Source of the DNA: a virus
IMG/VR virus record: IMGVR_UViG_3300030385_001015
Location: 1-28,239 of that record
Length of the DNA: 28,239 nucleotides
Reading direction: 5' to 3' (one strand)
Shown piece by piece: positions 1 to 28,239 of this stretch. The notes below the pieces were generated by a model. It was not told where the DNA came from and did no database searches. It saw only the letters and a program-made list of their open reading frames with translations. How positions within the stretch are numbered: the stretch's first letter is position 1; each line of letters starts with the position of its first letter. The translations under genes were made by a program, and so were the position numbers.

Positions 1-180
1 CCAGTCTTCAACACCGATTGCCTACAATCCCAATCGTAGGACTTGGTACTACTTACTTCCACTCACGCAGGAAGCTCTCGTTATGTTTGCCTGAGTCATT
101 GACTTACTCAGGTCTTTGTTTGCAGCACTCAAGTAGCTTACTCACTCGATCCAATAAAAGGACAATAGTTATTATCAGAT
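1..180 (-). ncRNA. candidate structured RNA (leftward)
   Basis: No ORF is convincing here. The stretch contains four inverted repeats that fit together. CCTGAGT at 90-96 pairs with ACTCAGG at 106-112. CTTCC at 56-60 pairs with GGAAG at 70-74. Both lie inside CTACTT (49-54) paired with AAGTAG (131-136), giving a three-way junction. A further stem pairs CCTAC (21-25) with GTAGG (36-40). A minus-strand TATATTTG box at 187-194 would start a transcript near 180 running leftward through all of these. The direction is inferred from that box. The 3' end lies beyond base 1, or across the junction if the molecule is circular. No known RNA family was recognised; a packaging or origin structure is an alternative. 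Confidence 0.35.
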
Positions 181-186
181 TCTAAG

Positions 187-204
187 CAAATATAAACAAT
201 TGTT
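187..204 (-). promoter_or_regulatory. leftward Bacteroidota-type -7 box in an 18-bp shared element
   Basis: On the minus strand the bases read AACAATTGTTTATATTTG, ending in a TATATTTG box that fits the TAnnTTTG consensus of Bacteroidota housekeeping promoters. The same 18 bases occur on the plus strand at 25761-25778. A good -33 TTTG is not seen, so promoter activity is inferred. It would drive the structured stretch 1-180. Confidence 0.45.
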
Positions 205-208
205 ATTT

Positions 209-223
209 AATAATCCTAATTTA
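209..223. repeat. 15-bp element shared in inverted orientation with 25685-25699
   Basis: The bases are the reverse complement of TAAATTAGGATTATT at 25685-25699. Together with 187-204 and 298-311 this forms a set of three elements that recur in reversed order in the divergent control region. Function is unknown; regulator or origin binding is possible. Confidence 0.5.
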
Positions 224-262
224 TTTTAAGTTTTTAATAAGTAAAGTTTAATAAATCTTACA

Positions 263-278
263 TAGGTGAAATCACCTA
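263..278. promoter_or_regulatory. perfect inverted repeat, operator-like
   Basis: TAGGTGA, two A residues, then TCACCTA: a perfect 7+2+7 palindrome in non-coding DNA about 250 bases before the small terminase gene. This is the size and symmetry expected for a dimeric regulator site. No second copy was noticed. Confidence 0.45.
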
Positions 279-297
279 GAAAAACAGCTAAAATTTA

Positions 298-311
298 CAA
301 TGCGTGCATTG
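298..311. promoter_or_regulatory. CAATGC-GT-GCATTG inverted repeat, copy 1
   Basis: A 6+2+6 inverted repeat, identical over all 14 bases to 25546-25559. The core ATGCnnGCAT also appears at 25636-25647. Being present in both control regions, it is a good candidate for the site of a phage-encoded or host regulator, or of a replication protein. Confidence 0.5.
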
Positions 312-350: not shown

Positions 351-394
351 TAGACCTCAACTTGACCCCATCTTGACCTCAATTAGACCCCAAG
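351..394. repeat. four tandem 11-bp repeats upstream of terS
   Basis: Four consecutive 11-base units: TAGACCTCAAC, TTGACCCCATC, TTGACCTCAAT, TAGACCCCAAG. The consensus is TWGACCYCAAN and the period is one helical turn, so all copies face the same side of the helix. They lie 130 bases before the small terminase gene, where cosB/pac-type sites bound by small terminase are often found. Replication iterons or activator sites are alternatives. Confidence 0.6.
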
Positions 395-524: not shown

Positions 525-998
525 TTGACTAGATTGCCCTCAGAACTTAAAAAACAAAGAGGAACTTACCGTAAGGATAGGGAAAACGCTAATGAACCTA
601 ACTTACCTTCAGTTGATTTACCGATTCCAAATTGGCTAAATGAAGATGGTAAGAAGGTTTTTATGGAATTGAGTTGCTTGCTACACGATATGTCCGTGTT
701 GACTCAGGCAGATTCAATAGCCTTAGAAATGCTTTGCGATGCTTATAGCGAATATAAGATAGCCAAAGAAGTTGTTAATAGCCTTGGTGCTACTATGGAG
801 ATAGTATCAAGAGAGGGTAATGTCAAATCCATTATACGACCAGAAGTTCAGATAGCCAATCAAGCTTTCGTTAGAGTATTTCAGCTTCTTAAAGAGTTTG
901 GTCTTACTCCATCGAGTAGAGCTAAAGTAAATGCTATAGAACGAGGCGATGGTAATACAGATGTTAAAATAGAAAACTTCTTCAACGGTGGCGAGTAA
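525..998 (+). CDS. terS: terminase small subunit, P27-like
   Basis: A 157-residue protein with the look of P27-type small terminases: a basic, disordered start followed by PIPNWLNEDGKKVF, a helical middle (DSIALEMLCDAYSEYKIA) and the closing stretch VFQLLKEFGLTPSSRAK, which is characteristic of the family. Small terminase binds phage DNA near its own gene and loads the large subunit for packaging. The reading frame starts at a TTG codon at 525; a second in-frame TTG lies at 534, and no ATG is available upstream. It overlaps the large terminase gene by 11 bases, which supports co-translation. The tandem 11-bp repeats at 351-394 are candidate binding sites. The family assignment is by motif recognition. 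Confidence 0.85.
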   Translation: MTRLPSELKKQRGTYRKDRENANEPNLPSVDLPIPNWLNEDGKKVFMELSCLLHDMSVLTQADSIALEMLCDAYSEYKIAKEVVNSLGATMEIVSREGNVKSIIRPEVQIANQAFVRVFQLLKEFGLTPSSRAKVNAIERGDGNTDVKIENFFNGGE

Positions 999-2574
999 TC
1001 TTAAAAACATAGATACCACTAAATTCTATTTCGATCCTAAATCGGCAGATAGATGTGTTGACTTTATCGAGAGATTTTGTAAGCACGTTAAAGGTGATTT
1101 AGCAGGGCAACCGTTTATCCTTGAAGAATGGCAGAAGGAAGATATTATCCGACCTTTATTTGGTTGGAAATCTAAGGAAACAGGATTAAGGAAGTTTAGA
1201 CAATGTTTCGTATTCATACCTCGCAAGAATGGTAAGACCAATTTAATGGTTGGTATTGCTCTCTATATGCTTTATTCTGATGGAGAGAAAGGTGCGGAAA
1301 TCGTGAGCGCAGCAGCAGATAAAGAACAAGCTCGTTTATCATTCTCTATAGCCAAGCAAATGGTTCTTCAAGAGCCTGAATTACTTAAACGCTCTGGTAC
1401 TTTTAGAGATTCTATTACCTACGATAAAGTTGGATCGTACTACAAAGTTATTTCTGCTGATGCTGACACTAAGCACGGATTAAATTTATCTTGTTGCTTG
1501 TTAGATGAAATTCATTCTCATAAGAATCGTGACCTCTATGATGTGTTACTTACATCTATGGGAGCGAGGAAAGAGCCTCTGATGCTCGGAATCACGACAG
1601 CAGGAGCAGGTCATCAGAAAGACCACATTTGTAAAGAGCTTTATGACTATTCGAAAAAACTTATCGAAGGAGTAATTAAGGATGATTCATTTTTAGGGGT
1701 TGTTTACGAAGCTGATAAGGATGATGATATATTCGATGAAGAGGTATGGAAGAAAGCCAATCCAGGCTATGGAACTATCATCACCAAAGAGTATATGCAC
1801 CAACAATCTATTAAGGCAAAAAATGAACCTTCATTTGAAAACACTTGGAGGCGATTACACCTAAATCAATGGGTGGCTAACGAAACTAGGTGGATCAGCG
1901 ATGAAAAATGGATGGAATGTGGTGATACAGTAGATGAGAAATATTTAAAAGGGAAACCGTGTTACGCAGGTTTAGATTTAGCATCAACTCGTGATGTAAC
2001 ATCTTTAGCTCTGATATTCCCTGATGAAGAAGGTGGATATGATATTATTTCTTATAATTTTATACCTGAAGATAATGCTCACCAAAGGTCGCAACGAGAT
2101 AAGGTAAACTATTCTAAGTGGGCTAGAGAGGGTCATATTATTTTAACTCCTGGAGATGTTTGTGATTACAATTACATTAAGCAAAAGATAAGAGATTTAT
2201 CTGAATTGTACGATATTCGTATGATAGCTTATGATAGATGGAATGCTTCTCAGATTGTAATTGACCTTACAGAAGAAGGTTGTCCAATGATTCCTGTAGG
2301 TCAAGGTTATAGAACAATGTCACCTGCCACTAAAGAATTTGAAACTTTAATTCTTGGAGGTAAAATTCGTCACGGAGGTAATCCTGTGCTTAGATGGATG
2401 ATGTCGAACATCGTGCTAACTTATGATGCAGCAGGGAATGTGAAGCCCGATAAATCCAAATCAAATGAAAAGATTGATGGTGTAATTTCTTGTATAATGG
2501 CACTATCAGAGGCAATGCAAAACAAAAACAAAGGAGGTTCAGCTTACGATGACAAAGAAATATTCTTTATCTAA
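988..2574 (+). CDS. terL: terminase large subunit (ATPase and nuclease)
   Basis: A 528-residue packaging motor protein of the Terminase_1 type. The ATPase domain shows the Walker A-like FIPRKNGKT near residues 76-84 and Walker B LLDEIH near 171-176, followed by the coupling motif GITTAG near 201-206. The C-terminal nuclease begins with GLDLASTRDVTSL near 327, whose first Asp is the usual metal ligand; another acidic site is the AYDRWN segment near residue 416. The length is normal for the family and nothing is missing. The start is GTG at 988, inside the end of the small terminase gene. It cuts concatemeric DNA and pumps it through the portal encoded just downstream. Confidence 0.95.
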   Translation: MASNLKNIDTTKFYFDPKSADRCVDFIERFCKHVKGDLAGQPFILEEWQKEDIIRPLFGWKSKETGLRKFRQCFVFIPRKNGKTNLMVGIALYMLYSDGEKGAEIVSAAADKEQARLSFSIAKQMVLQEPELLKRSGTFRDSITYDKVGSYYKVISADADTKHGLNLSCCLLDEIHSHKNRDLYDVLLTSMGARKEPLMLGITTAGAGHQKDHICKELYDYSKKLIEGVIKDDSFLGVVYEADKDDDIFDEEVWKKANPGYGTIITKEYMHQQSIKAKNEPSFENTWRRLHLNQWVANETRWISDEKWMECGDTVDEKYLKGKPCYAGLDLASTRDVTSLALIFPDEEGGYDIISYNFIPEDNAHQRSQRDKVNYSKWAREGHIILTPGDVCDYNYIKQKIRDLSELYDIRMIAYDRWNASQIVIDLTEEGCPMIPVGQGYRTMSPATKEFETLILGGKIRHGGNPVLRWMMSNIVLTYDAAGNVKPDKSKSNEKIDGVISCIMALSEAMQNKNKGGSAYDDKEIFFI

Positions 2575-3043
2575 AAACGAAATTATAGTCGAAGAGATGA
2601 GTACGATCCGTGAGGTTTGTGCTAACATCTTATCGGCTAATATGGATTTACACCTGATAGATGACTTAGTTCAGGATGTAACTCTAATTTTACTTTCACA
2701 AAATGAGATAACTATTCAATCGCTCCACGAAACAAATCAGTTTTGCTTTTATGTAGCTCGTATAGTCACTAATCAAGTTTTATCTACCACTAGCCCATTT
2801 CATAAGACTTATCGCCTTAGACTGCCTAAAAACAGTCTTAAACAGGATGATTACGAACCTCTAGCAGATGAGATTTGGGTAAAAGCTATGAATTTACCTG
2901 ATGATAGGGCTAAAAGTATAGTTCATTTACGCTACGAATATGGTTTGAAAATTCACGAAATAGCTAAGATACATAAGATTTCAACTAGATATGTACACGG
3001 TATTATAGCCTCAGTACATAGTTATTTGGAAAAAAATCACTAA
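2549..3043 (+). CDS. sigma-70-family (ECF-like) sigma factor
   Basis: A 164-residue protein resembling a minimal sigma factor. The segment around LIDDLVQDVTLILL (residues 37-50) looks like sigma region 2, and residues 112-160 (DDRAKSIVHLRYEYGLKIHEIAKIHKIST and after) look like the region 4 helix-turn-helix, with a linker between. It would recruit host RNA polymerase to particular promoters. The gene overlaps the end of the large terminase gene by 26 bases if the first ATG is used; an ATG at 2597 would avoid the overlap. AGGAGG at 2531-2536 is one of few Shine-Dalgarno-like sequences here. Its place between terminase and portal is unusual. A DNA-binding regulator without sigma activity is an alternative. 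Confidence 0.65.
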   Translation: MTKKYSLSKNEIIVEEMSTIREVCANILSANMDLHLIDDLVQDVTLILLSQNEITIQSLHETNQFCFYVARIVTNQVLSTTSPFHKTYRLRLPKNSLKQDDYEPLADEIWVKAMNLPDDRAKSIVHLRYEYGLKIHEIAKIHKISTRYVHGIIASVHSYLEKNH

Positions 3044-16379: not shown

Positions 16380-16688
16380 ATGCCAAAGTTACCCAAAGAA
16401 AGACCTCCTCACTACTTAAAGAAGAATCAATCTTGGGGTGGTGATACTTCATTCTATCGAACTACTAAGTGGCGCAAGCTACGAGGATATGTATTAAGAC
16501 AGAATCCGTTATGCGTTCATTGTGAGGATAAAGGTATAGTAACTGAAGCACAAATGGTGGATCACATTAATCCCATAAAAAACGGAGGTTCTGAATTAGA
16601 AATTTCCAATCTTCAAGGGCTTTGCCACAAATGCCATAATAAGAAAACATACTATGAGAATAACCCCCACCATAAGATTCCGAAGTAA
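16380..16688 (+). CDS. HNH endonuclease
   Basis: A 102-residue HNH nuclease. It has a basic N-terminus, the segment FYRTTKWRKLRGYVLRQNPLCVHC, the HNH core MVDHINPIKNGG near 59-70, ISNLQGLCHKCHNKKT near 75-90, and two CxxC pairs (Cys45/48 and Cys82/85) forming a zinc knuckle. This size and arrangement match the HNH proteins of HK97-like phages that work with terminase in end cleavage, although those usually sit next to terS. Here the gene is at the far end of the late operon. A free-standing homing nuclease is the alternative. Confidence 0.88.
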   Translation: MPKLPKERPPHYLKKNQSWGGDTSFYRTTKWRKLRGYVLRQNPLCVHCEDKGIVTEAQMVDHINPIKNGGSELEISNLQGLCHKCHNKKTYYENNPHHKIPK

Positions 16689-22917: not shown

Positions 22918-23146
22918 AATCTCGGACTGTTTTTATTAGGAAGTCCGCTAACTCCTCACTTAATAACATCTCTTCTACGAGGGCTTCACTTAATATCTCT
23001 CCATCTGTACTAACATTCGCCCTTGTAACATACTCATCATCCTTATTAAACTCACAGGAGATGATTAAATACTCATCACAGTTTTCTACGATTTCCTCCG
23101 TAGCTACATCAATTCTATCTATTTTCATATTGCTTGAATAAATCAA
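22895..23146 (-). CDS. small acidic protein of unknown function
   Basis: An 83-residue, strongly acidic protein (IDRIDVATEEIVENCDEYLIISCEFNKDDEYVTRANVSTDGEILSEALVEEMLLSEELADFLIKTVRDYEIQ). The first half is strand-like and the second helical. The Met at 23128 (MKIDRID) is a more likely start than 23146, reducing overlap with the upstream gene. It lies between the DnaA-domain gene and SSB. No family recognised; a DNA-mimic or replication accessory could be proposed only from its charge. Confidence 0.55.
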   Translation of the reverse strand: MIYSSNMKIDRIDVATEEIVENCDEYLIISCEFNKDDEYVTRANVSTDGEILSEALVEEMLLSEELADFLIKTVRDYEIQKPN

Positions 23147-23558
23147 TCATCGCTTCTGTCTTAGCATCAATCGATAATTTGGTTGTGATTATTGTTTGGA
23201 TTTCAGTAAATAGAGTCTTGGTAATCCCTTCTAATTCATTCTTATCCTTACGAACAACTAATCTCCTCTTTAATATAGCAAAATCAGATTCGCTGTAGGT
23301 TAAATCTTCAAAGGTATCTCTGGAATGAATAACAGAAGAATGGTCACACTCTGTTAACTGAGCTATCTTAGGAAGGGATAGATTCTTGTGTAGATAGGTA
23401 AGGTAGTATTTAGCTGAATGTCGAGCATAAACTAATCGTCTTGCTCTGTCCTTACTAAATATCATTGATGGATCAACCATCCAATAATCGCAAGAAAACT
23501 CAACAGCATCTCGTAGTGCTAACTTTTCTTTGTCTGTTATTGTTGAAGTATCTCTCAT
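23115..23558 (-). CDS. stand-alone DnaA domain IV-like DNA-binding protein
   Basis: A 147-residue protein whose residues 38-85 read like the DNA-binding domain of DnaA: RARRLVYARHSAKYYLTYLHKNLSLPKIAQLTECDHSSVIHSRDTFED. This contains the DnaA signature helix-turn-helix with DHSSVIHS. The AAA+ domain is absent. It may bind DnaA-box-like sites at the phage origin or at host oriC. It is coupled to the upstream exonuclease by an ATGA overlap. The C-terminal third is helical without recognised motif. Confidence 0.85.
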   Translation of the reverse strand: MRDTSTITDKEKLALRDAVEFSCDYWMVDPSMIFSKDRARRLVYARHSAKYYLTYLHKNLSLPKIAQLTECDHSSVIHSRDTFEDLTYSESDFAILKRRLVVRKDKNELEGITKTLFTEIQTIITTKLSIDAKTEAMIDLFKQYENR

Positions 23559-25378: not shown

Positions 25379-25410
25379 CAAATGTAAGAAACTTTATTTT
25401 ATAAAACAAA
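25379..25410 (-). promoter_or_regulatory. strong leftward early promoter
   Basis: On the minus strand TTTG (25410-25407), exactly 20 bases, then TACATTTG (25386-25379): a full match to the Bacteroidota housekeeping promoter. Transcription would start about seven bases downstream, near 25372, giving a leader of about 28 bases before the ATG at 25344. It should drive the early replication operon using host RNA polymerase. Confidence 0.85.
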
Positions 25411-25545: not shown

Positions 25546-25559
25546 CAATGCGTGCATTG
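25546..25559. promoter_or_regulatory. CAATGC-GT-GCATTG inverted repeat, copy 2
   Basis: Identical to 298-311. It lies about 135 bases upstream of the leftward promoter. Candidate operator or replication-protein site. Confidence 0.5.
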
Positions 25560-25684: not shown

Positions 25685-25699
25685 TAAATTAGGATTATT
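25685..25699. repeat. 15-bp element shared in inverted orientation with 209-223
   Basis: TAAATTAGGATTATT; its reverse complement is at 209-223. Here it lies about 60 bases upstream of the rightward promoter, whereas near the left end the element directly adjoins the matching promoter box. Confidence 0.5.
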
Positions 25700-25746
25700 G
25701 AATTATTTTTATATACGCGTGTTCCTTATCTTATTTTCGTTTTTTG

Positions 25747-25778
25747 CTTGTACGGTTGTGAACAATTGTTTATATTTG
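25747..25778 (+). promoter_or_regulatory. rightward promoter of the accessory operon
   Basis: CTTG at 25747-25750, 20 bases, then TATATTTG at 25771-25778. The last 18 bases (25761-25778) are identical to the minus strand at 187-204. Transcription would start near 25785, with a 35-base leader to the first ATG at 25820. Confidence 0.65.
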
Positions 25779-25819: not shown

Positions 25820-25972
25820 ATGAGATATTTCGCACCTTTAAAACAGACTAAATTTGAATTAGCTTTAAGAGCTGAAGAAATAGAAAATTTTGTTTTTGTT
25901 TATAAATACAAAGTTTTATACCGATCTTTTTTTATGCCTTTTTACAAAAATTATTTTAACTCTAAAAATTAA
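25820..25972 (+). CDS. 50-residue basic protein, first gene of accessory operon
   Basis: A short frame, MRYFAPLKQTKFELALRAEE and onward, rich in Phe, Tyr and Lys, ending FYKNYFNSKN. It begins with AACTATG, the start context also seen before the other genes of this operon, and lies directly behind the promoter. No membrane span or family recognised. A longer frame that starts at 25890 overlaps it and is less likely. Confidence 0.5.
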   Translation: MRYFAPLKQTKFELALRAEEIENFVFVYKYKVLYRSFFMPFYKNYFNSKN

Positions 25973-25976
25973 TCTT

Positions 25977-26153
25977 ATGAAAACTATTTTTATTCACTTA
26001 CTACATTTCGCAGCTTGTATTTTATTTGTGGGCTTATTTTGTTCAATTGTATTGATTACAATTTTTTACTTTTTAGATTTGCCTATAGCAATGCTTTTTT
26101 GTGTATCGATAGAGTTCGCAATAGCTAAAATTATTTTAACTGGTAAACTATAA
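25977..26153 (+). CDS. 58-residue membrane protein
   Basis: Starts MKTIFIHLLHFAACILFVGL and continues with FCSIVLITIFYFLDLPIAMLFCVSIEFAIAKIIL, predicting two membrane segments with a short loop. The ATG at 25977 follows the previous stop by four bases; an in-frame ATG at 25890 would add 29 residues but overlaps the upstream gene. Function unknown; it lies four bases before the Gp88-family gene. Confidence 0.6.
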   Translation: MKTIFIHLLHFAACILFVGLFCSIVLITIFYFLDLPIAMLFCVSIEFAIAKIILTGKL

Positions 26154-26157
26154 AACT

Positions 26158-26808
26158 ATGGAATTCACTACACAAGATTTGATTGATTTGAAGCATTCGC
26201 AAATTTTGACGCAAAATGATAAGATGCGCAAAACATCAAAAGAAAATAATATCCGATTATACAATTTTGGTATTACTGCGCTTCGAAGCCATACAACAGG
26301 AAAGGTAACCTGTCCCTTTGCAGGCGCTTGTGCTAAATTTTGCTACGCTCGAAAAGGTTCGTTTATATGGACGAACACGAAAAAAGCGTATGAAAAGCGT
26401 TATTTGTTGACTAAAGAAAAAAGCCTGTTCATTGAAAAAATGTCAAACGCAATAGAGCGAAGAAAAGCTTCGCACATAAGAATTCACGACAGCGGAGACT
26501 TTTATAATTTTGAGTATATAAATTCTTGGTTCGAAATTATAAACAAATTTTCGAAGGTTCAATTTTACGCTTATACAAAAAGCAAAATTTTGTTCGATAA
26601 ATTAACTGACTCAACACCTGAAAATTTAACGCTTATTTTTTCGTTAGGTTCTAAGAATGACAATTTAATTAATGAGTCAAAAGATAGGCATTCGAAAATT
26701 TTTGAGAGCGAATTAGAGCTTTTGAATGCAGGCTATTTGAACGCTTCAAAAAATGATTTAATAGCCATATCAAAAGAGAGCCATAAAATAGGGCTTGTAA
26801 TACACTAG
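26158..26808 (+). CDS. Gp88-family protein, possible radical-SAM-like
   Basis: A 216-residue protein with clear features of the mycobacteriophage Gp88 family: TCPFAGACAKFCYARKG (residues 51-67), with Cys52, Cys58 and Cys62, then IRIHDSGDFYNFEYINSWFEI (108-128), FYAYTKSK (136-143) and SHKIGLVIH at the end. The Cys cluster followed by aromatic residues recalls phage proteins related to radical SAM enzymes (Gp37/Gp68, DUF5131), but the Cys spacing is not the canonical CxxxCxxC. The substrate is unknown. It is the largest gene of the accessory operon and is shorter than actinophage homologues as I recall them. Family membership is fairly sure, chemistry is inference. Confidence 0.8.
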   Translation: MEFTTQDLIDLKHSQILTQNDKMRKTSKENNIRLYNFGITALRSHTTGKVTCPFAGACAKFCYARKGSFIWTNTKKAYEKRYLLTKEKSLFIEKMSNAIERRKASHIRIHDSGDFYNFEYINSWFEIINKFSKVQFYAYTKSKILFDKLTDSTPENLTLIFSLGSKNDNLINESKDRHSKIFESELELLNAGYLNASKNDLIAISKESHKIGLVIH

Positions 26809-26841
26809 ATTAAAATATCATTAACTTAACACCTGGGAAAT

Positions 26842-27219
26842 ATGAACGAAGTACAATTTAATGCAAATAATAATTTAGTAGTAATCAATACACTAAATTT
26901 GCAGCTCAACAATTTAGACTATCTATTTAATTTGGGATTGAAAAGAACTAATCCCGAAACAATAGAAAAAATTAATTTACAATTTGAAAAAATAAGCAAA
27001 GAATTCTATAGTAATTTTGAGGCTAATTATGGCATTCAAAAAGTAGCAACACACAAAAAAGATAGAATATCTTTGTTGATTTACTATTCCAATATACTTT
27101 GCCGTGAGTCTGAAAACTGCGCCAATAAAGTTTATTTTTATGATATAAGTTTATACCGTGAATTTATGCAGATTAACAATAACGCTTTAGAAATTCGTAA
27201 ATATTTACTTAACTACTAA
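26842..27219 (+). CDS. protein of unknown function in the accessory operon
   Basis: A 125-residue protein, MNEVQFNANNNLVVINTLNLQLNNLDYLFNLGLKRTNPE..., mostly helical with many Asn and Tyr residues; two Cys in ILCRESENCANKVYFYD. It follows the Gp88-family gene after 33 bases and precedes the next by 11. No family recognised. Codon use is AT-rich like the rest of this operon. Confidence 0.6.
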   Translation: MNEVQFNANNNLVVINTLNLQLNNLDYLFNLGLKRTNPETIEKINLQFEKISKEFYSNFEANYGIQKVATHKKDRISLLIYYSNILCRESENCANKVYFYDISLYREFMQINNNALEIRKYLLNY

Positions 27220-27230
27220 AAGAAAAGACT

Positions 27231-27563
27231 ATGTATAAAATAACCCAAGTAACTACAGAAAAGCGCCTATTTTTTGGCACAAAAGAAATTGAAACGGTTT
27301 ATAAATTTGAAGAATACAATAGCGCCTTACTATTCGCATTGAACGAACAAATACCAAATTTTAAGCACATTGTAAGTGATTCAATACAAAGTAACCGTAA
27401 AACATTCGATAGACTCTACACCTGCAAACAATGGTTAAAATTAGCGCGCAAAAATCCGATTCATTATATAGGGCTGCAAAGTTCGAACGGTGTAAATTTA
27501 GAGCGGTTATACTATTACTACATCAATAGTAATAAACTTTATTATATCCAAAAACATATATAA
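27231..27563 (+). CDS. basic protein of unknown function
   Basis: A 110-residue protein, starting MYKITQVTTEKRLFFGTKEIETVYKFEEYNSALLFALNE. The first third is strand-like and the rest helical, with KTFDRLYTCKQWLKLARKN and many Tyr at the end. Start context AAAGAAAAGACTATG matches that of the next gene. Family unknown. Confidence 0.6.
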   Translation: MYKITQVTTEKRLFFGTKEIETVYKFEEYNSALLFALNEQIPNFKHIVSDSIQSNRKTFDRLYTCKQWLKLARKNPIHYIGLQSSNGVNLERLYYYYINSNKLYYIQKHI

Positions 27564-27582
27564 ACAACTAAAAGAAAATACT

Positions 27583-27810
27583 ATGAAAGCAAATCTAAAA
27601 GAAATTAACGCAGCGAAACAGCTACTAAAAAAAGAAGGTTATTATATAAGTGATCTTTGGCACGTTTTGGATGTTAACTATATAAACGAAAATCAATATT
27701 TTAATTGTACTAATGAAAAGGCTTATAGTATACTGAACACAGTTTTAAGTAGTGAACATATTATTGAAATAATAAGAAATAAAATACGCTTCGAAGTGCA
27801 CCAAGAATAG
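27583..27810 (+). CDS. small helical protein, LW.V.DV family of mobile elements
   Basis: A 75-residue protein with NAAKQLLKKEGYYISDLWHVLDVNYI, then FNCTNEKAYSILNTVLSSEHIIEIIRNKI. The pattern GY....LW.V.DV followed by F.CT.EEAY..L is a small family I recall from Bacteroidota phages, plasmids and conjugative elements, of unknown function. It is the last gene before the terminator at 27833. Confidence 0.65.
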   Translation: MKANLKEINAAKQLLKKEGYYISDLWHVLDVNYINENQYFNCTNEKAYSILNTVLSSEHIIEIIRNKIRFEVHQE

Positions 27811-28071: not shown

Positions 28072-28120
28072 ATGCCTTGTTTATCCTATTAGAACCAATA
28101 TAAATTAAGCCATCAATATA

Positions 28121-28164
28121 ATAGTATGTAATGAATACTATCATATAGTATGTAATGAATACTA
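28121..28164. repeat. tandem 20-bp palindromic repeats, operator-like
   Basis: The 20 bases ATAGTATGTAATGAATACTA occur twice (28121-28140 and 28145-28164) with a period of 24. Each contains TAGTAT and ATACTA separated by seven bases, so each copy is an inverted repeat suited to a dimeric protein. The surrounding 170 bases (28072-28239) are AT-rich and hold no gene that I can support. Confidence 0.65.
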
Positions 28165-28239
28165 CTATAACATATCGATATAATTATATATATACATAGG
28201 TAGGGGTGTCCAGATCACTAGCAAAAAATGCCTCAGAAC

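Follow-up and report, generated by a model that had tools for sequence, protein, structure and literature searches.

A lineage-specific promoter, present in two inverted copies, probably drives the accessory gene slots of a cos-type phage

Short elements that recur in inverted orientation near both ends of the window (the whole stretch of DNA analysed here, 28,239 bases long and recorded in IMG/VR as a linear virus contig) are very probably two copies of one lineage-specific promoter driving accessory gene slots of a cos-type phage. This shared-promoter reading is well supported by the relatives of the phage, although some of them, as described below, speak against it.

The window probably represents most of the genome of a marine cos-type phage with a Bacteroidetes host, the host being assigned from the promoter type alone. 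A rightward late operon begins with terS and terL (525..2574, plus strand) and continues with portal and tail-type genes; it is followed by an HNH protein, by a leftward replication operon (methyltransferase, DnaB-like helicase, SSB, exonuclease and, at 23115-23558, a DnaA-C-domain protein; Pfam Bac_DnaA_C, 3.6e-11), and then by a rightward operon with gp88. Directly downstream of terL, in the window as in relatives, lies a small protein (2549-3043) with weak similarity to sigma-70 region 4. When the entire window was compared by megablast with 50,697 deposited phages, there was no match, and the relatives found among these phages were at most about 46% identical in TerL and about 32% identical in gp88. 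IMG/VR, on the other hand, holds many relatives, the nearest being a 29,371-base contig (L064 and L003; G001) with a TerL 99-100% identical to that of the window.

The three repeats are found exactly as the original prediction described them, in mirrored order and inverted orientation. The 18-mer AACAATTGTTTATATTTG lies at 187-204 (minus) and 25761-25778 (plus), and the 15-mer TAAATTAGGATTATT at 209-223 (minus) and 25685-25699 (plus), extending to the 16-mer AATTAGGATTATTRAA at 206-221 and 25687-25702; in both pairs the copies are exact. The palindrome CAATGCGTGCATTG, which has no strand, is found at 298-311 and 25546-25559. The 18-mer is the sole exact inverted 18-mer of the window, where shuffled sequences lead one to expect 0.13, and two matches with at most three mismatches were reached in 2 of 100 shuffles; taken alone, it is thus statistically marginal. 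The 15-mer alone is within chance, as shuffled sequences contained a mean of 2.4 inverted 15-mers. Gapped alignment of the left and right regions, however, scored 53, against a mean of 22.5 in shuffles (sd 3.5, maximum 41, n = 300), and therefore the repeats, taken together and in order, exceed chance. The palindrome seems to be a weaker element than the other two, its support being limited to the window, one relative and L009: among the 20 records searched it occurs in two copies in the window, in the left copy only in the nearest relative and in two variant copies in L009, with none in the remaining 17.

Compared across relatives, the 15-mer and the 18-mer are two parts of one putative lineage promoter, AATTAGG-N4-TTAACAAATGTT-N3/4-TATATTTG. 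The unit is of the Bacteroidetes -33/-7 type with a near-palindromic site, AACAAWTGTT, inside the spacer; the 16-mer forms its upstream part, while the 18-mer comprises the spacer site and the -7 box. The repeats had been proposed to be control elements, and the occurrence of this -33/-7 unit in relatives bears that out. In the left promoter (187..221, minus) AATTAGG occupies the -33 region at 215-221, followed by AACAATTGTT at 195-204 and the -7 box TATATTTG at 187-194. The same architecture, [AATTAGG or TTTGG]-N4-[TTAACAAATGTT or near forms]-N-[TATATTTG], occupies this position in the contigs of about 19 relatives, leftward and about 700-800 bp upstream of terL (1.4 kb in one of them). The right promoter (25685..25778, plus) consists of the upstream part (25685-25702), an insertion, a new -33 TTG (25748-25750), AACAATTGTT (25761-25770) and the -7 box TATATTTG (25771-25778). 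The gap between the 16-mer and the 18-mer is thus not conserved, with 1 bp in the left promoter and 58 bp in the right one, and in the nearest relative, where the right promoter is kept (L003), the insertion has grown to a 141-bp GT-rich repeat. Such a strong difference in spacer length between two close phages could mean a change in promoter strength. As an observation in its own right, a long GT/GC-rich microsatellite lies inside the right promoter region of L003 (9475-9570).

The published Bacteroidetes consensus has TTTG at -33 and TAnnTTTG at -7 (PMC7366714). Both copies conform to the latter with TATATTTG. When TTTG or TTG was sought about 17-22 bp upstream, the right copy had a standard TTG 20 bp ahead of its -7 box; the left copy has TTAGG, in place of which several relatives have TTTGG or TTGG. 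The upstream half of the right copy may be a relic, given its displacement by 58-141 bp. Compared with known Bacteroidetes sigma-A promoters (PMC7366714), the two copies are alike in the -7 box and, on the right, in TTG-N20, and differ in the extra AACAAWTGTT near-palindrome in the spacer and in TTAGG at the left -33. Not every promoter of the phage includes this site: that of the replication operon (25379..25409, minus; TTG-N20-TACATTTG), which diverges from the right accessory promoter, has a -7 box without it.

In the fetched loci, 2.64 Mb in all, there are 25 distinct cases of the site with a -7 box within the next 8 bp, where about 0.4 would be expected; within the window, only the left and right copies qualify. 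One relative (G018) carries both the left and the right version, and two others (G001, G017) have a third copy, in front of a 90-aa ORF; it points rightward, and its place is flanked by the HNH region and the end of the replication operon. The commoner form, TTAACAAATGTTN{1,4}TATATTTG, when used to scan 2.9 million viral contigs, gave 32 matches, 20 of them in relatives, where mostly a small ORF begins 28-40 nt downstream and the ORF products are varied; this argues that the putative promoter marks slots for interchangeable accessory genes. Exact 18-mer matches in the other viral contigs L300, L301, L303, L304 and L306 were set aside, as these showed no kinship with the window phage. Several findings stand against a shared promoter: the left -33 reads TTAGG instead of TTTG, the upstream half of the right copy is displaced, many relatives with the gp88 operon have a right promoter without AACAAWTGTT, the L075/L082 clade has a degenerate site only, and the palindrome CAATGCGTGCATTG is narrowly distributed. 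Our literature search, largely confined to papers outside subscription journals, found no description of either this promoter or the RNA discussed below.

Terminase-bearing contigs of 27 relatives start at one identical nucleotide of a conserved block (CCTTTCTGTACACCCTGTCA..), and the window, L003, L008 and G021 all terminate at ..AAC. Contigs crossing the join read AAC-CATCGCCCSC-CCTTWC or close variants, with 9-10 nt resembling CATCGCCCSC between the ends in L072, L007, L086 and L115; about 10 nt are therefore missing at both contig ends and present at joined sites. It is known that assemblies of cos phages often come without the overhang (PMC5000459), and HK97 has 10-nt 3' overhangs (PMC9410871). 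The simplest reading is that these are cos ends with a 3' overhang of about 10 nt lost in library preparation, the 3' type being judged from the loss at contig ends. Resemblance to HK97-type 3' cos systems (PMC9410871) extends to the large terminase, the HNH protein and the presumed overhang of about 10 nt; the differences are that the HNH gene (16380-16688) lies far from terS and that the overhang type comes from contig ends only.

On the cos reading, the right end of the window (28230..28239, plus; ..CTCAGAAC), which stops just before the CATCGCCCSC of about 10 nt in the junction contigs, is taken as the true virion end, and the left end lacks 943 bp that the nearest relative has in L064. 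Across cos, the right end would join on as ..CTCAGAAC-CATCGCCC(S)C-CCTTTCTCTCCACC.. and would adjoin CCTTTCTCTCCACCCTGTC. A circular molecule had been put forward as a condition: relatives' contigs do cross the join, but the ends of the window are not directly joined, owing to the missing 943 bp. The same piece makes the arm between the two promoters about 3.6 kb long instead of the 3 kb originally estimated. The arm is contiguous in relatives, where the gp88 operon and terS share one contig with cos between them. The order is right promoter, gp88 operon, cos, small ORFs, RNA and left promoter, and the gene order around cos is identical in all relatives read. The promoter copies, both facing outward to the window ends, hence do point into the arm, as predicted, and face each other across it.

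Other repeats lie near these ends. Between the left promoter and terS there are four TWGACCYCAA repeats with exact 11-bp spacing (351..394, plus), a block conserved in relatives in the opposite orientation; they are candidates for terminase-binding (cosB) sites, replication repeats or an origin. Purine-rich GATAARGATA repeats are found just ahead of terS (407-422) and also in L009 and L010, and a tandem imperfect palindrome, TAGTAT-GTAATGA-ATACTA, conserved in L003, lies near the right cos end (28117-28165).

Behind the right promoter lies the gp88 operon (25820..27810, plus), with ORFs at 25820-25972 (50 aa), in the 25890-26153 frame, at 26158-26808 (gp88, PF17338), 26842-27219, 27231-27563 and 27583-27810. 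The 943 bp of L064 contain the remainder of the leftward operon, with ORFs of 29, 29, 85 and 28 aa. An accessory cassette of about 415 bp (L003 1636-2050), consisting of the promoter and a 90-aa ORF (1684-2028; MQTTLLNTIIESTKGKFFGVTF..), is present in G001 and G017 and cleanly missing from the window at about 17152. It is thus a promoter with its gene that one relative has and another cleanly lacks, as would be expected of a moron. Morons usually have unrelated promoters. The small extra genes of this lineage resemble them in having their own promoter and in being gained and lost between near relatives, and differ in that one composite promoter with a spacer site serves several slots, with different cargo here. 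In some mycobacteriophages start-associated sequences are repeated before several genes, at translation starts; the likeness is that a short conserved signal recurs before several genes of one phage, and the difference that the repeats of the window are promoters with a -7 box. There was some truth in the suggestion of a captured mobile module, since cassettes of small ORFs, interchangeable ones, accompany the promoter where it recurs. The arrangement is no inverted module, however, since one palindrome has been lost in a relative, the left operon is missing in others and a third promoter copy lies elsewhere.

The left promoter appears to drive a family of RNA that is common in phage contigs and has no Rfam entry. 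Two tandem structured units (18..147, minus) match a model built from relatives, L064 included, at 147-87 (E 3e-4) and 81-18 (E 2e-8). The RNA begins about 40 nt downstream of the -7 box and runs past the left end of the window; in L064 it spans 880-1090 (minus), its 3' domain lying at about 880-960. Each unit, and units are often tandem, consists of ACGAGA, a hairpin G-Y-(bulge)-NNN-[UGCGUGAGU]-NNN-R-C with a 5' bulge and the 9-nt loop UGCGUGAGU, and a second hairpin with CCUAN/NUAGG as its closing sequence. Across the 20 relatives that were aligned, all cells of ten named pairs are standard pairs, and 29 cells show changes on both sides, against 8.5 in shuffles. Among the matches listed, the inner three pairs, which the search pattern leaves unconstrained, are kept in 128 of 134 distinct copies (UCC/GGA, AGC/GCU, ACC/GGU, GGC/GCU, CCA/UGG). 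Some paired changes also occur in the 3' domain with its loop GUGGGAAC, while a kissing interaction of the hairpin loop with that domain, judged by eye, was dropped as not conserved.

The hairpin pattern occurs in at least 120 viral contigs, and the same pattern read backwards had no match. It is effectively missing from genomes of bacteria and archaea, of which 84,980 were covered: the one match (L157) fails both the stem and the model and was therefore regarded as chance. Rfam gave no RNA match at or near the gathering score, nor did any stand out by E-value, and deposited phages gave chance-like short matches only. The RNA is seen in records of up to 91 kb, ahead of different genes, and in most of these records TerL or DnaB relatives of the window phage were not found; among the matches listed, 8 of the 134 copies start only 0-3 nt behind a tRNA. 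It is missing from the long relatives G018, G020 and G022. Because its genome neighbours change, the RNA probably acts in trans.

If both promoters are active, the left copy would transcribe leftward, first the structured RNA and after it the tiny ORFs that extend as far as the left cos end, and the right copy, split by the insertion and provided with a new -33, would transcribe the gp88 operon to the right cos end. Once the cos ends anneal, the two accessory operons would thus converge on cos. The promoter parts in this scheme are the -33 region (AATTAGG or TTTGG), the AACAAWTGTT spacer site and the -7 box TATATTTG. We infer that the spacer site may bind one regulator, of phage or host origin, which would switch the accessory operons together; the sigma-like protein at 2549-3043, a weak match, and the DnaA-C-domain protein at 23115-23558 are candidates only. 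That the left promoter transcribes an undescribed, modular and probably trans-acting phage RNA family, switched jointly with the gp88 operon through the shared promoter, is a combined proposal towards which we incline only slightly.

That one control region was recently duplicated in inverted orientation within the lineage, with no common regulator, is a possible but rather doubtful explanation of the repeats. The alignment of the two copies does extend weakly past the elements, and the 18-mers are identical and closer to each other than to most other relatives' copies. However, the spacings differ between the copies, G018 carries a pair of its own, left and right, with the same site, and G001 and G017 have a third copy elsewhere, which makes the promoter repeats a feature of the lineage. 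The earlier proposal of an inverted regulatory duplication of a unit fails likewise, as the palindrome varies alone and the left operon can be missing on its own. The control regions do not vary together, an outcome that the original prediction had named as its refutation: of the two palindromes, the closest relative has lost the right one and kept the left one, and the L010/L123 clade lacks the left operon with its promoter and retains the right-hand operon.

It had also been suggested that the elements are parts of an origin or partition system split over two sides, and in favour of this are the palindromes, the iteron-like repeats at 351-394 and the DnaA-C-domain protein (3.6e-11). We consider this very improbable, as in relatives the elements fit a -33/-7 promoter and stand a constant distance ahead of ORFs, the copies are not kept together there, and no partition protein was noticed. 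Even less credible are sites of recombination or site-specific inversion flipping the arm: identical short elements do stand inverted around one arm, but all relatives read share one gene order around cos, the identical stretches are just 18 bp long and no recombinase was noticed. Moreover, the arm includes cos, and its flipping would therefore shift the genome ends.

Two copies of one promoter thus remain our preferred reading, and it offers a testable consensus which would mark accessory slots in an uncultured, probably marine phage group, so that sequence alone would suffice for listing accessory genes. On the cos reading, the physical genome ends of this group are fixed as well. Finally, the analysis points to a covarying RNA family outside Rfam which is frequent in phage contigs and effectively missing from bacterial and archaeal genomes.
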